In this document: in pieces, positions 12,684-55,662 of the stretch | Layout of the letters: every line of letters begins with the position of its first letter | Numbering within the stretch: position 1 is the first letter of the stretch | NCBI RefSeq assembly: GCF_004364435.1 | Contig: NZ_SOCT01000010.1 | Span: 1 to 64,000 of the forward strand | DNA length: 64,000 nucleotides | DNA from: Pseudomonas sp. LP_7_YM | GTDB lineage: Bacteria > Pseudomonadota > Gammaproteobacteria > Pseudomonadales > Pseudomonadaceae | Direction: 5' to 3' | Position numbers and translations under genes: made by a program | The notes under the pieces: generated by a model | Databases searched by the model: none | Told to the model about the DNA's origin: nothing | The model's input: the letters and a program-made list of their open reading frames with translations, nothing else

Positions 12684-14426
12684 ATGAAGTTAGCCATTGT
12701 CACGGCATGTCCGAACGGCAAGATCAGCAGTGTCCTCAGTGCACGACTGCTCGACGCCGCGGCCCAGCGTCAGGGCTGGAGTACCTGCGTCGAGGTGCAT
12801 GACCCTCGCCATCCCGAAAAGCGCCTCAGCGCGCAGGAAGTCGAAAGCGCCGACTGGGTGCTGGTGGTCAATACCGGGCCGCTGGACCTGACCCGTTTCG
12901 CAGGCAAACGTCTGTATCAAGCGACGCCTTCCCGAGCATTGCAGGATATCGATGCCTTCATGGGGTCGGCGGGCGAACTGGCAACGCTGTATACCGCCAG
13001 CGAAAGCGCCGAAACAGTCGCCGTCGCTACTGCCGCCAAGACGCCGCGTCTGGTGGCGGTAACAGCCTGCCCAACCGGCGTGGCGCACACATTCATGGCT
13101 GCCGAGGCGATCCAGCAGGCGGCCAGGAAACTCGGCTATGACCTGCAGGTGGAAACCCAAGGCTCGGTCGGCGCACGTAACCCGCTTAGCGATCAGGCCA
13201 TTGCCGACGCCGACGTGGTGCTGCTGGCCGCCGATATCGAAGTCGCCACTGAACGATTCGCAGGCAAGCGCATTTATCGTTGCGGCACCGGAATTGCGCT
13301 CAAACAGTCCGAAACGACATTGAAAAAAGCCTTGGCTGAAGCTGCGGTCGAATCCACCGCAGCAGCCTCATCGGCACCCGCCAAAAAAGAAAAGACCGGG
13401 GTCTACAAGCACTTGCTGACCGGTGTGTCGTTTATGCTGCCGATGGTGGTGGCGGGTGGTCTGTTGATTGCGCTGTCATTCGTTTTCGGGATTCATGCCG
13501 CCGAAGAGCCGGGCACGCTGGCGGCCGCGTTGAAACAGATCGGCGCCGGTGCAGCCTTTCAGTTGATGGTGCCGCTGTTGGCGGGTTACATCGCCTATTC
13601 CATCGCTGATCGTCCAGGGCTGGCGCCGGGGATGATCGGCGGAATGCTGGCGACGACCCTGGGTGCCGGCTTCATCGGCGGGATCATCGCAGGGTTTCTG
13701 GCGGGCTACAGCGCAGCGCTGGTCAATCGCTATGCGCGGCTGCCGGCCAGCGTCGAAGCTCTCAAACCGATCCTCATCATTCCACTGCTCGCCAGCCTGT
13801 TCACCGGTCTGGTGATGATCTATGTGGTCGGTAAACCAGTGGCGGACATGCTGGAAGGTCTGACCCACTTCCTCGATACCATGGGCACCGCCAACGCTGT
13901 TTTGCTGGGTGTTTTGCTCGGGGCCATGATGTGCGTCGACTTCGGTGGACCGATCAACAAGGCTTCATACGCGTTCTCCGTAGGGTTGCTGGCATCGAGC
14001 AGCGGCGCACCTATGGCGGCGACCATGGCCGCCGGTATGGTGCCGCCCATCGGGATGGGCATTGCCGCGCTGATTGCACGCGGCAAGTTCGCCCAGAGTG
14101 AACGCGAAGCAGGCAAGGCGTCGTTCGTGCTGGGGCTGTGCTTCATCTCCGAAGGCGCGATCCCGTTCGCTGCGAAAGACCCGTTGCGGGTGATCCCGGC
14201 CAGTGTCGTCGGTGGCGCACTGACCGGGGCACTGTCGATGTTCTTCGGCTGCAAACTCATGGCGCCCCACGGCGGACTGTTCGTGCTGCTGATCCCCAAT
14301 GCGATCAACCACGCGTTGTTGTATCTGCTGGCTATCGTCGTTGGCAGTGTGGTGACGGGCGTGTTGTATGCGCTGCTGAAACGACCTGAGGTGGTTGAAC
14401 TGGACGCGGTGCCAGCGGGGGCCTGA
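12684..14426 (+). CDS. fruA: Fructose-specific PTS permease EIIB'BC
   Basis: 580 residues. An N-terminal IIB-like domain (IVTACPNGKISS) is followed by the catalytic IIB domain (VTACPTGVAHTF, phospho-Cys129) and a IIC membrane domain of about ten segments from residue 245 on (GVSFMLPMVVAGG; DFGGPINKASYAF). It takes up fructose and releases fructose-1-phosphate. A GTG at 12681 is also in frame, but GAGAGGAAG (12671-12679) is correctly spaced for the ATG at 12684. It completes the fructose operon; no clear terminator follows. Confidence 0.96.
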   Translation: MKLAIVTACPNGKISSVLSARLLDAAAQRQGWSTCVEVHDPRHPEKRLSAQEVESADWVLVVNTGPLDLTRFAGKRLYQATPSRALQDIDAFMGSAGELATLYTASESAETVAVATAAKTPRLVAVTACPTGVAHTFMAAEAIQQAARKLGYDLQVETQGSVGARNPLSDQAIADADVVLLAADIEVATERFAGKRIYRCGTGIALKQSETTLKKALAEAAVESTAAASSAPAKKEKTGVYKHLLTGVSFMLPMVVAGGLLIALSFVFGIHAAEEPGTLAAALKQIGAGAAFQLMVPLLAGYIAYSIADRPGLAPGMIGGMLATTLGAGFIGGIIAGFLAGYSAALVNRYARLPASVEALKPILIIPLLASLFTGLVMIYVVGKPVADMLEGLTHFLDTMGTANAVLLGVLLGAMMCVDFGGPINKASYAFSVGLLASSSGAPMAATMAAGMVPPIGMGIAALIARGKFAQSEREAGKASFVLGLCFISEGAIPFAAKDPLRVIPASVVGGALTGALSMFFGCKLMAPHGGLFVLLIPNAINHALLYLLAIVVGSVVTGVLYALLKRPEVVELDAVPAGA

Positions 14427-21561: not shown

Positions 21562-21755
21562 GGGGTTCTCCAGTGGAATGCGTACGGAATGCGCCGTACG
21601 TCAGATTGCGGAACACTACGCGATTTAGACGGTCATAACGCCGCGATCGTCGAGGGTAGTGCTCGGAAAACCGCCAATTTAGCATATTGGCTCCTTGCCC
21701 AAAATCCCTGTCGTTGTTAGAGTTTGCCGCACTTTTTTACCCACGCGTTCCCTAG

Positions 21756-22805
<1,050 letters not shown>

Positions 22806-23010
22806 GTCGCCGGATTGCTACTGTGTGAGCTGAACGGGTGGCACTTTGCGGTGCTGCCTGTTCGTGTCTGATCTGCTGATGTCCTGCTGCTGTATTGAAA
22901 GCTCGATGCTGCAAGTCTGGCACTCCGTATTTCCATCAACCGCACCAGGCCGGTTTCATGTCCCATGAATAAGCACAGCCAAACACAAGCATCCCTGGAA
23001 GGAGCGGCCC

Positions 23011-24156
23011 ATTAAACCGCTTTTCTCAAAGGGCCCGTCGTTGGGCGTTCGTCTCTTGGTGCTGGTCGTCCTCTCCGTGGCCGTCATGGTGGTGGATGCA
23101 CGCTTCACGCTACTCAAGCCTGTGCGCAGTCAGATGTCGCTGGTGCTGATGCAGTCCTACTGGATTGCCGATCTGCCCGAGCGTTTGTATCAGGGTGTCG
23201 CCAGCCAGTTCGGCAGTCGCACCGAGCTTGCCGCCGAAAACGAGAAACTCAAAACCGAGAACCTGCTGCTGCAGGGCCGCCTGCAAAAGCTGGCTGCCTT
23301 GACCGAGCAGAACGTTCGGCTGCGCGAATTGCTCAATTCATCCGCGCTGGTCAACGAGAAGGTTGAAGTGGCCGAACTGATCGGCATGGACCCCAACCCC
23401 TTCACCCATCGCATCATCATCAACAAGGGTGAGCGCGACGGCGTGGTACTGGGTCAGCCGGTGCTTGATGCGCGCGGTTTGATGGGGCAGGTCGTCGAGT
23501 TGATGCCCTACACCTCCCGAGTCCTGCTGCTCACCGACACCACCCACAGCATTCCCGTGCAGGTGAACCGTAATGGCCTGCGTGCGATCGCCAGTGGCAC
23601 CGGTAATCCCGAGCGTCTGGAGTTGCGCCATGTGGCCGATACCGCCGACATCAAGGAAGGCGACCTGCTGGTGAGTTCCGGGCTGGGGCAGCGTTTCCCG
23701 GCCGGTTATCCGGTGGCGACGGTGAAGGAAGTGATTCACGATTCCGGCCAGCCGTTTGCCATCGTGCGGGCGGTGCCTACCGCCGCGCTGAACCGCAGCC
23801 GTTATCTGTTGCTGGTCTTTTCCGATGGCCGTTCGCCTGAAGAGCGTGCGGCTGATGCTGCGCAGCAGCAAGAATCGCTCGAGCGTCAGACCGCCGACCC
23901 TTCTGCAGTGCCTTCGGCGACGGTACCCGGTGCTACGCCTGCGACGACCCCGAACAAACCGGTTGTACCCGCCACCGTGCCTAAACCCGCCGAGACCGGT
24001 CACAGCACCTCATCAGCTCCGGCGGCTGCGCCTGTGCCTGCTGCTACGCCTGCCAGGCCTGCGGCGAGTAAACCTGCCGCCAAGCCTCAGGCCAGGCCCG
24101 CCAAACCGGCCACGCCGACAGCGACTCCTGCAGCCCCGCGTGAGAGGGAGGAATAA
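23011..24156 (+). CDS. mreC: Rod shape-determining protein MreC, probable ATT start
   Basis: 381 residues if started at ATT 23011, 371 from TTG 23041. A short cytosolic N-terminus and one membrane segment (LLVLVVLSVAVMVV) precede a coiled coil (LAAENEKLKTENLLLQGRL) and the MreC beta domains (GMDPNPFTHRIIINKG; GDLLVSSGLG), then a Pro/Ala-rich tail of about 90 residues. It links MreB to PBP2 in the periplasm. AAGGAG (22999-23004) lies 6 nt before the ATT. No ATG or GTG occurs in frame between the stop at 22966 and 23041. The TTG has a competing AAAGGG (23028-23033), so the start is open. The stop overlaps the mreD ATG by one base. Confidence 0.95.
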   Translation: MKPLFSKGPSLGVRLLVLVVLSVAVMVVDARFTLLKPVRSQMSLVLMQSYWIADLPERLYQGVASQFGSRTELAAENEKLKTENLLLQGRLQKLAALTEQNVRLRELLNSSALVNEKVEVAELIGMDPNPFTHRIIINKGERDGVVLGQPVLDARGLMGQVVELMPYTSRVLLLTDTTHSIPVQVNRNGLRAIASGTGNPERLELRHVADTADIKEGDLLVSSGLGQRFPAGYPVATVKEVIHDSGQPFAIVRAVPTAALNRSRYLLLVFSDGRSPEERAADAAQQQESLERQTADPSAVPSATVPGATPATTPNKPVVPATVPKPAETGHSTSSAPAAAPVPAATPARPAASKPAAKPQARPAKPATPTATPAAPREREE

Positions 24157-24647
24157 TGGTTCGTCATGCTCCTGCACGAAATGGCTGGGTGGTCTGGTTG
24201 ACCTTCGCCATCGGCCTGCTGCTCAGCGTCTCGCCGCTGCCGCAATTCATGGAAATCTTCCGTCCGCTGTGGCTCGCGCTGCTGCTGGCATTCTGGGCGC
24301 TCACGCTGCCACACAGGATCGGCATGGTCACTGCGTGGATGCTCGGTCTGGCTGAAGACGTGCTTTACGGGACATTGCTGGGGCAGAACGCGTTGATCCT
24401 GACGTTGATTACCTTTCTGGTCCTGTCCCTGCAACAACGCTTGCGGATGTTCCCGATGTGGCAGCAGTGCCTGGTGATTCTGGTGATCTTCGGCATCGCG
24501 CAGTTGATCCAGCTGTGGCTCAGCGCCCTGACCGGCAACCGTCAGCCGACCCTGGCGCTGGTCTTGCCTGCATTGGTCAGTGCATTGTTGTGGCCATGGG
24601 TCAGCTACGGTCTGCGCGGCTTGCGCTCGCGATTGAAGATCAACTGA
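24156..24647 (+). CDS. mreD: Rod shape-determining protein MreD
   Basis: 163 residues, with about five membrane segments and the conserved stretch GMVTAWMLGLAEDVLYGTLLG. It is an inner-membrane partner of MreC in the elongasome. GGAGG precedes the ATG, which overlaps the mreC stop. Confidence 0.96.
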   Translation: MVRHAPARNGWVVWLTFAIGLLLSVSPLPQFMEIFRPLWLALLLAFWALTLPHRIGMVTAWMLGLAEDVLYGTLLGQNALILTLITFLVLSLQQRLRMFPMWQQCLVILVIFGIAQLIQLWLSALTGNRQPTLALVLPALVSALLWPWVSYGLRGLRSRLKIN

Positions 24648-24680
24648 GGCTTTACCCGTAAAACGGTCTGGCCCGTACTT

Positions 24681-24735
24681 CTGTCGGGAGTTCTTCGTCT
24701 GAGCGCTTGCATCGCGAATGAATTGGCTCACGCAG
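24681..24735. repeat. Degenerate pseudomonad REP-like repeat
   Basis: ATCGCGAATGAATTGGCTCA (24711-24730) resembles the right arm of the REP pair at 37770-37795 (TCGCGAATGAGTTCGCTCAT). The left half (CTGTCGGGAG) is decayed. Confidence 0.45.
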
Positions 24736-54441: not shown

Positions 54442-54480
54442 TACAGAGGGGTACTCATCTTCCAGTCTCAGGGGACTCCC

Positions 54481-55662
54481 ATGTTGAATGCTTCAGATCG
54501 TGCCATCGTCAAAGCTACTGTGCCATTACTGGAAAGCGGCGGTGAGGCGCTGGCCACTCATTTCTACAAGAAATTGCTTGGCAGATACCCGCAGGTGCGT
54601 CCGCTGTTCAATCAGGCGCATCAGGCCAGTGGCGCCCAACCCCGTGCGTTGGCTAATGCCGTATTGATCTATGCCCGCCATATAGACCAACTCCAGGAGT
54701 TGGGCGAGCTGGTCACCAGGATCATCAACAAGCATGTTGCTTTGCAGATATTGCCAGAGCATTACCCCTTGGTTGGCGAGTGCTTGTTAGAGGCCATCCG
54801 TGACGTGCTCGGCGCCCAGGTCGCGACCGATGCGGTCATTGCCGCTTGGGGGAATGCCTACTGGCAACTGGCCAATATCCTGATCGGAGCCGAAAAGGAC
54901 ATCTATGAGGAAAAAGCCCGGGCACCGGGCGGCTGGCGTGGAGCTCGCGAATTCAAGCTGGTGGCCAAAGTGCCGGAGAGTGCCGAGATCACTTCGTTCT
55001 ATCTCGCCCCGGCTGACGGGCAGCCAATTGTTGAGTTCATCGCGGGCCAGTACATCGGGCTGCAACTGTTTCTGGGGGGGGAAGAGCTTCGTCGCAATTA
55101 CTCGCTCTCCGGGTTGGTGCGGGATAACCAGTACCGGATCAGCGTCAAGCGCGAAAACGGTGGTCGCGTCTCCAGCCACCTGCACGATGAATTGAATATA
55201 GGCGATAGCATCAACCTGTTCACGCCGTCGGGCGAATTCACGCTCAGGCAAAGTGACAAGCCGTTGGTCCTGATCAGTGGCGGAGTCGGCATCACGCCGA
55301 CCCTGGCCATGCTGCAAGCGGCGCTGGAGGGTCCACGGCCCATTCATTTCATCCACTGTGCACGCAATGGTTCTGTCCATGCGTTCCGGGACTGGATCGA
55401 AGAACTGGTCAGCAAGCATTCTCAGCTCAAACGCTTTTACATTTACGATGAAGAGGACCACGCCAGTCCGCCTGCCGACGCTACAGGGTTGCTGGATCAG
55501 TCGCGCCTCGAACAGTGGCTGCCAGAAAGTCGTGACCTGGATGCCTACTTGCTCGGGCCGCAAGGTTTCATGGCCGCCGTCAAGCGTCAGCTGAGGGCGG
55601 CGGGTGTGCCAGACGAGCAGGTCCACTATGAATTCTTCGGGCCTGCAACCGCGCTGGAGTGA
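54481..55662 (+). CDS. hmp: Flavohaemoglobin, nitric oxide dioxygenase
   Basis: 393 residues. Globin domain to about 140 (proximal His in INKHVALQI, ATHFYKKLL), FAD domain (RRNYSLSG; GRVSSHLHDELNIGD) and NAD(P)H domain (LISGGVGITPTLAML; LLGPQGFM). It oxidises NO to nitrate with O2 and NADH. The promoter carries NorR/FhpR-like boxes and a -24/-12 element. No regulator gene lies next to it in this window. Confidence 0.97.
   Translation: MLNASDRAIVKATVPLLESGGEALATHFYKKLLGRYPQVRPLFNQAHQASGAQPRALANAVLIYARHIDQLQELGELVTRIINKHVALQILPEHYPLVGECLLEAIRDVLGAQVATDAVIAAWGNAYWQLANILIGAEKDIYEEKARAPGGWRGAREFKLVAKVPESAEITSFYLAPADGQPIVEFIAGQYIGLQLFLGGEELRRNYSLSGLVRDNQYRISVKRENGGRVSSHLHDELNIGDSINLFTPSGEFTLRQSDKPLVLISGGVGITPTLAMLQAALEGPRPIHFIHCARNGSVHAFRDWIEELVSKHSQLKRFYIYDEEDHASPPADATGLLDQSRLEQWLPESRDLDAYLLGPQGFMAAVKRQLRAAGVPDEQVHYEFFGPATALE

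Follow-up and report, generated by a model that had tools for sequence, protein, structure and literature searches.

Where does translation of mreC begin? The question is raised by the 64-kb window (the whole stretch of DNA that was analysed), in which the MreC reading frame appears to open with AUU, at which ribosomes do not normally initiate. The sequence elements follow in the order AAGGAG, CGGCCC, ATT, AAA CCG CTT TTC TCA AAG GGC CCG TCG and TTG 23041. Between the TGA at 22966 and the ATT at 23011, the frame contains no ATG, GTG or TTG. Its first canonical start codon is TTG 23041, and a GTG at 23059 (codon 17) lies 3′ of this TTG. The initial annotation had placed AAGGAG 6 nt ahead of the ATT, and the sequence is as it described. 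It had also stated that no ATG or GTG exists in frame after TGA 22966; this is correct as far as TTG 23041 and incorrect further down, where the GTG at 23059 is found.

The start codon of mreC in Pseudomonas

The product was identified as MreC by the NCBIfam profile TIGR00219 (228 bits against a curated cut-off of 92.75), and the Pfam MreC core PF04085 also matches. Furthermore, the gene order mreB-mreC-mreD was confirmed by Pfam (PF06723, PF04085 and PF04093 in sequence). The stop codon of mreB lies 205 nt 5′ of the mreC start, and the mreC stop overlaps the mreD ATG in TAATG. The genes on the minus strand 5′ of mreB are presumably gatB, gatA and gatC, and those on the plus strand 3′ of mreD are taken to be maf and rng; these names rest on the translations. 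Promoter and terminator scans of 21600-24700 gave counts no higher than in shuffled sequences. The features of the locus are listed in Table 1.

Table 1. Features at the mreBCD locus of the window, with coordinates, strand and supporting evidence
Feature	Coordinates	Strand	Remark or evidence
mreB, ATG start	21768..22805	+	Pfam PF06723
TGA stop in frame with mreC	22966..22968	+	15 codons 5′ of the AUU; sequence
Shine-Dalgarno (SD) AAGGAG	22999..23004	+	6 nt 5′ of the AUU; sequence
Putative mreC AUU start codon	23011..23013	+	ATT in 80/80 relatives; onset of coding evolution; aligns with E. coli ATG
mreC codons 2-10, KPLFSKGPS, basic cytosolic N-terminal tail	23014..23040	+	variation mostly synonymous
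TTG, read as internal Leu codon of mreC	23041..23043	+	different codon in 52/80 relatives
mreC, 381 codons counted from the AUU	23011..24156	+	TIGR00219, PF04085
mreD, ATG start	24156..24647	+	Pfam PF04093

To compare the start codon within the genus, the best 80 of 414 Pseudomonas relatives in a public genome collection were used. We found that the start position of mreC was ATT in all 80 of these best-matching loci and ATG in none, which was the survey that the initial annotation had called for. The SD region was also nearly invariant: positions −11 to −3 varied in no more than 2% of the 81 Pseudomonas sequences (window included). The same procedure was applied to the neighbouring genes as controls, and ATG was found for gatC (80/80), mreB (80/80), maf (77/77) and rng (77/77), with three maf and three rng loci skipped as unaligned. 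For mreD, only 48 of the 80 near loci could be aligned, and all had ATG. Judged from these alignments, the conservation of ATT at the mreC start is far beyond chance.

In addition, the single-base codon differences on the two sides of the ATT were counted. For codons +1 to +9 of mreC, the ratio of synonymous to nonsynonymous differences was 8144:921 (90% synonymous), and for codons +10 to +30 it was 24003:2439. In the nine triplets 5′ of the ATT, read in the same frame, the ratio was 1324:5026 (21% synonymous). These counts come from 81 sequences including the window (74 of them distinct), and they are pairwise comparisons among related sequences, not independent events. As far as such comparisons can tell, the shift from non-coding to protein-like evolution falls exactly at the ATT. 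The initial annotation had read the ten codons from ATT to TTG 23041 as an MreC N-terminus and had proposed AUU as the probable start. Both proposals gain strong support here, the first from the protein-like evolution of the codons before TTG and the second from this evolution together with the conservation of the ATT.

Apparent AUH starts across the Gammaproteobacteria

Beyond the genus, we refer to AUU, AUC and AUA collectively as AUH (H = A, C or U). At the family level, 295 of 298 genomes were matched. Among 30 Pseudomonadaceae representatives from 19 genera, all had AUH at the start position (ATC in 16, ATT in 11 and ATA in 3). A further 29 loci, the best matches of the family search, were all ATT, and their species may repeat those of the genus set.

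The order search matched 55 of 56 genomes and the class search 114 of 124. From these, 48 order-level and 89 class-level loci (137 in total, mostly one genome per family) were fetched. The count leaves out five order-level matches and 24 of the 114 at class level, most of which were among the most divergent or fragmentary; one of the five order-level genomes entered through the class set. Sixteen of the 137 loci were dropped before counting, either with an unaligned N-terminus or at a contig end; inspected by eye, 10 of these had a canonical start nearby, 1 had an AUH start and 5 were unreadable. Finally, among the 121 scored loci of the GTDB class Gammaproteobacteria, 81 had AUH (ATC 37, ATT 31, ATA 13), 34 had a canonical codon (ATG 21, GTG 9, TTG 4) and 6 were ambiguous. 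Because of the unfetched and dropped loci, the share of 81/121 probably overstates the class-wide share of AUH. Nor is the AUH start indispensable, as a canonical codon takes its place in 34 of the 121. ATA was not enriched at the start site relative to internal Ile codons (p=0.20).

The position of the codon is well defined. AUH was found at exactly the aligned position in 77 of the 81 loci and one to three codons upstream in the other 4, and this position aligns with the ATG of E. coli and Aeromonas. In two Acinetobacter, a GTG lies one codon earlier than the AUH position. Among the 77 AUH-type order- and class-level loci aligned at position 0, Phe5 was present in all and Lys2 in 66. Furthermore, an in-frame stop was found no more than five codons 5′ of the AUH in 26 of the 81 loci, and in 9 of them it was only one or two codons away; there is therefore little or no room for any other start in these genes. 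No canonical start occurred between the upstream stop and the AUH in 77 of the 81. Within the sample, then, the aligned sequences show an apparent AUH start of mreC that is widely conserved in the class and has switched type in many lineages. All 11 loci returned from other classes of the phylum had a canonical start near the N-terminus, and their N-termini were unrelated or not alignable.

The controls were extended in the same way. For gatC, ATG was found in 19/20 family, 9/10 order and 21/21 class loci, and for rng in 25/25 family, 21/22 order (one GTG) and 0/1 class loci (GTG). For mreB, a non-ATG codon was found in 2/30 family, 7/28 order and 5/27 class loci, two of them ATT; all of these (14/85) were taken as N-terminal misalignments because an ATG lay one to three codons upstream in every case. 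ATG was counted for maf in 20/22 family and 3/10 order loci, with none aligned at class level, and for mreD in 2/4 family, 1/3 order and 2/6 class loci. These two genes align too poorly beyond the genus to serve as controls.

As a side observation, an AUH is found one or two codons further 5′ than usual in four mreC loci (L371, L189, L234 and L268), and from there back to the preceding stop the frame lacks a canonical start. The AUH of mreC may therefore be able to shift in position in addition to changing type.

Shine-Dalgarno strength and rival readings

The two types of mreC differ in their SD. The mean duplex energy with the anti-SD was −7.35 kcal/mol for AUH-type genes (n=81) vs −3.56 kcal/mol for ATG-type genes (n=21; Mann-Whitney p=1.4e-6). 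If a gene had no start at the aligned codon but more than one canonical candidate, its candidate with the best SD was used. To estimate the genomic background, 8.5-14 kb around mreC was used from 20 genomes of each type (canonical and AUH), two of the AUH-type ones having been scored as ambiguous. The background was equal in both sets (−4.45 vs −4.45 kcal/mol; 98 ORFs in canonical-type and 105 in AUH-type genomes). The SD of AUH-type mreC exceeded that of its own genomic background by 2.7 kcal/mol (p=2e-5), and that of canonical-type mreC did not exceed its own background (mean difference −0.43, p=0.84). Compensation is therefore visible on the AUH side only, since canonical-type SDs are not weaker than those of their own genomes. 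The strengthening of the SD is specific to AUH-type mreC, and the SDs of canonical-type genes are ordinary.

On the best MreC tree (the short tree of 131 rows), the start type changes 28 times. Independent pairs on supported branches numbered only 3, too few for significance in a comparison of SD with start type. Regardless of branch support, the same tree yields 26 path-independent pairs, and the AUH member had the stronger SD in 23 of them (p=2e-5). When only AUH vs ATG was compared, it did so in 17 of 20 pairs (p=3e-4).

Taken jointly, these results make us highly confident in a reading in which mreC starts at AUU 23011 behind a strong SD; by inference, this SD would compensate for the codon, and initiation would be held at a low, fixed level sensitive to initiation factor IF3. 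Several other explanations should be weighed against it. Gene callers would put the start at TTG 23041 (or at GTG 23059) and leave the preceding 30 bases as an untranslated leader; the frame indeed offers no canonical start before this TTG, and a deposited P. aeruginosa record begins mreC at the GTG of codon 17. However, the codon at the position of TTG 23041 was CTG in 46 relatives, TTG in 28, ATG in 4, TTA in 1 and CTC in 1, so the possible alternative that the initial annotation had kept for this TTG is not upheld. Codons 2-10, which would be leader, evolve as protein. Moreover, the first canonical codon downstream has a weaker SD duplex than the ATT in 81/81 near sequences, and a weaker one than the AUH in 78/81 order- and class-level loci. 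A start at codon 17 in P. aeruginosa would also strip the tail of its basic residues and cut into the membrane segment, whose peak 19-residue hydropathy would fall from 2.34 to 1.58. We therefore regard a downstream start as extremely unlikely. Even less credit can be given to the idea that translation enters from upstream, by stop readthrough or from an upstream canonical start, with AUU as an internal Ile codon. It could draw on an in-frame ATG, GTG or TTG no more than 12 codons upstream in 3/80 near, 5/30 family and 6/121 order- and class-level loci (the last scored as ambiguous). Counted at any distance before the stop, an in-frame canonical start lies 5′ of the codon in 3 of 81 near loci and in 9 of 31 family-level loci (the 30 representatives and P. 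aeruginosa). Against it, the triplets 5′ of the AUU evolve as non-coding DNA, in-frame stops stand one or two codons 5′ of the AUH in 9 of 81 order- and class-level loci, and the AUU site aligns with the E. coli ATG.

Two further explanations accept the AUU and dispute its role. It might be a near-cognate codon without regulatory purpose, tolerated where a strong SD is good enough and where mutation to AUG would bring no benefit. The frequent changes of start type on the tree and the ordinary SDs of canonical-type genes speak for such tolerance. However, a single base change would turn AUU, AUC or AUA into AUG, and AUU is nonetheless fixed in all 80 Pseudomonas while nearby synonymous sites vary; the neighbouring genes of the same loci remain ATG, and the SD strengthening is confined to AUH-type genes. 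Tolerance alone is thus possible and, in our judgment, unlikely. Alternatively, the real regulator might be a conserved mRNA hairpin that holds the AUU in its loop and hides the SD. Minimum-energy folds of three of four leaders (the window and two relatives) had 8-9 contiguous pairs and a 9-nt loop holding the AUU, and the P. aeruginosa leader had a shorter hairpin. Nevertheless, in none of 19 loci did the fold exceed in stability those obtained with randomised synonymous codons (P=0.52 for the window, 0.20 at the lowest), and against shuffled partners the observed stem score was reached in 73/200 (family), 121/200 (order) and 101/200 (class) permutations. The permutation test is uninformative in the near group, in which the sequences are too alike. 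An Rfam scan of 22700-23300 around the mreC start also gave 0 matches. With stability no greater than under synonymous randomisation and, beyond the near group, stem scores no higher than for shuffled partners, the start-site hairpin was rejected as a selected element, and we consider it very unlikely to be the regulator. The hairpin predicted at 22999-23025 in near Pseudomonas has the SD in its stem.

A probable weak start in mreBCD and its known counterparts

A start at AUU 23011 is thus very likely; it is inferred from comparison alone, and not from ribosome profiles, N-terminal peptides or reporters. If so, AUU 23011 would be decoded as formyl-Met by the initiator tRNA, and TTG 23041 would be an internal Leu codon. 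The strong SD would compensate for a codon against which IF3 discriminates, and by analogy with known genes AUH and SD would jointly set the initiation rate. By this analysis, the initiation of mreC is likely to be low and IF3-sensitive, at a set rate that would depend on the balance of IF3 to ribosomes; this is inferred and has not been tested. The pattern suggests that MreC synthesis is deliberately kept low, again by inference and with no direct translation data. MreD is perhaps held down together with MreC because the mreD ATG overlaps the mreC stop, and translational coupling is possible. MreC and MreD would then be scarce relative to MreB, whose gene lies upstream in the same cluster with an ordinary ATG. 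It is plausible that the weak start sets the MreC:MreB ratio, an inference that fits the strong compensating SD.

The textbook AUU-start gene is infC. It was used as a positive control, with starts scored by tblastn, and its AUH codon had the best SD of the N-terminal region in 30/30 genomes of the class, this genome included. Within 30 codons 5′ of the conserved domain, 15 of the 30 had no canonical start and the other 15 had one with a weaker SD.

The bacterial genes described with an AUU, AUC or AUA start are few, and most of those with proof are special cases (PMC5472188, PMC1780047, PMC13009471). In E. coli, infC encodes IF3, starts with AUU and is autoregulated by IF3, which represses initiation at noncanonical codons (PMC5472188). 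In vitro, more IF3 lowered the full-length peptide share from AUU read by a CAU anticodon to 31.1% and raised that from well-paired codons to 70-100% (PMC10158994). Like mreC, infC has an AUH start. However, infC encodes IF3 itself and so forms a feedback loop, and mreC encodes a cell-wall scaffold; any IF3 link of mreC would therefore be one-way. Another difference from infC is that many lineages have a canonical start in place of the AUH of mreC.

Three other systems are instructive. The AUU start of E. coli pcnB limits its expression (Binns and Masters 2002, via PMC1780047, PMC13009471), so pcnB, as proposed here for mreC, is a non-autoregulatory gene held low by AUU. Unlike mreC, pcnB shares the start ATG CTG AAG AAG CTG TTC in the four Pseudomonadaceae that were read. 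The sigR gene of Streptomyces has an IF3-repressed GTC start behind a strong, extensive ribosome-binding site (RBS), and SigR is overproduced when the GTC is changed to a canonical codon (PMC5472188). It resembles mreC in its noncanonical start, its extensive RBS and its pairing with a second gene, the ratio of the two products being important; it differs in that the codon is GTC instead of AUH, that it encodes a stress sigma factor and that its case has been shown by experiment. In S. aureus, cvfC1 (AUU) and ccpN (AUA) have conserved starts behind extended SDs, with an output below that of AUG in reporters (PMC13009471). The conserved noncanonical start with an extended SD is common to these genes and mreC. 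However, they are Firmicutes genes for a small protein and a repressor, and mreC is a core elongasome gene of Gammaproteobacteria.

With an AUH at the homologous start position, no canonical start that fits the conserved N-terminus and a strong, well-placed SD, mreC has the features of a noncanonical-start gene. It joins the kind known from infC, pcnB, sigR and ccpN, and what is unexpected is the depth of the start and its place in the cell-shape machinery. A core cell-shape gene has an apparent AUH start in most scorable gammaproteobacterial genomes, with RBS strength shifted to match, and mreC thus offers a natural comparative experiment on the trade-off between start codon and SD. Among the matches listed in a search of open-licence literature, none concerned a noncanonical mreC start, and earlier notice elsewhere is not excluded. 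In PMC4394545 and PMC5945682 the relevant words co-occur, and neither concerns the mreC start as far as their available text goes.

A wider proposal is that an ancestor of much of the Gammaproteobacteria put mreC under an IF3-discriminated AUH and a strengthened SD as a translational governor. We offer it only as a tentative idea that may well be wrong. If it is true, the capacity for cell-wall elongation (MreC, and MreD by coupling) would follow the state in which the initiation machinery finds itself. Lineages that moved to AUG, such as Enterobacterales, would in that case have needed another way to keep MreC low.

The initial annotation had also counted two AUU-type cases in this 64-kb window and suggested a habit of the lineage. 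As worded, this is not borne out. We scanned the window for frames of at least 120 codons with an AUH behind an SD of −6 kcal/mol or better, leaving out CTG starts and any frame in which a canonical start preceded the AUH or followed it by no more than 6 codons. Seven other places were found, and none was convincing by eye, without comparison with relatives. Of these, the ATC at 54457 lies 8 codons 5′ of the ATG of the gene at 54481, and the translation at 14426 has the look of a shadow frame. The remaining five, judged only from short translations, were unconvincing. The shared ATG start of pcnB in the four Pseudomonadaceae also speaks against such a habit. The noncanonical start follows the gene mreC, not this genome. 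Separately, in pcnB of one genome (G434, locus L393) the frame from the upstream stop to the conserved part has a TTG and an adjacent ATT ATA, and neither ATG nor GTG; this sequence leaves an AUH start possible.

The P. aeruginosa record mentioned above, CP123788.1, reads AGGAG-CGGATC-ATC AAA CCG CTA TTC, with a stop four codons 5′ of the ATC. Its apparent AUC start is at 219, and the deposited CDS begins at GTG 267, 16 codons late and inside the membrane segment. Deposited MreC annotations can thus be truncated, as in this record, which lacks 16 N-terminal residues. Such a truncation would matter for full-length constructs, two-hybrid tests and models of the MreB-MreC contact. The fourteen residues given in a structural paper are short, which by our inference would fit a numbering from a late start. 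CP123788.1 is filed as a plasmid and looks like a 1.1-kb chromosomal fragment. Three other mreC-bearing records filed as plasmids (NZ_CP134663.1, NZ_OL790811.1 and NZ_AP026896.1) have lengths that suggest chromosomes.
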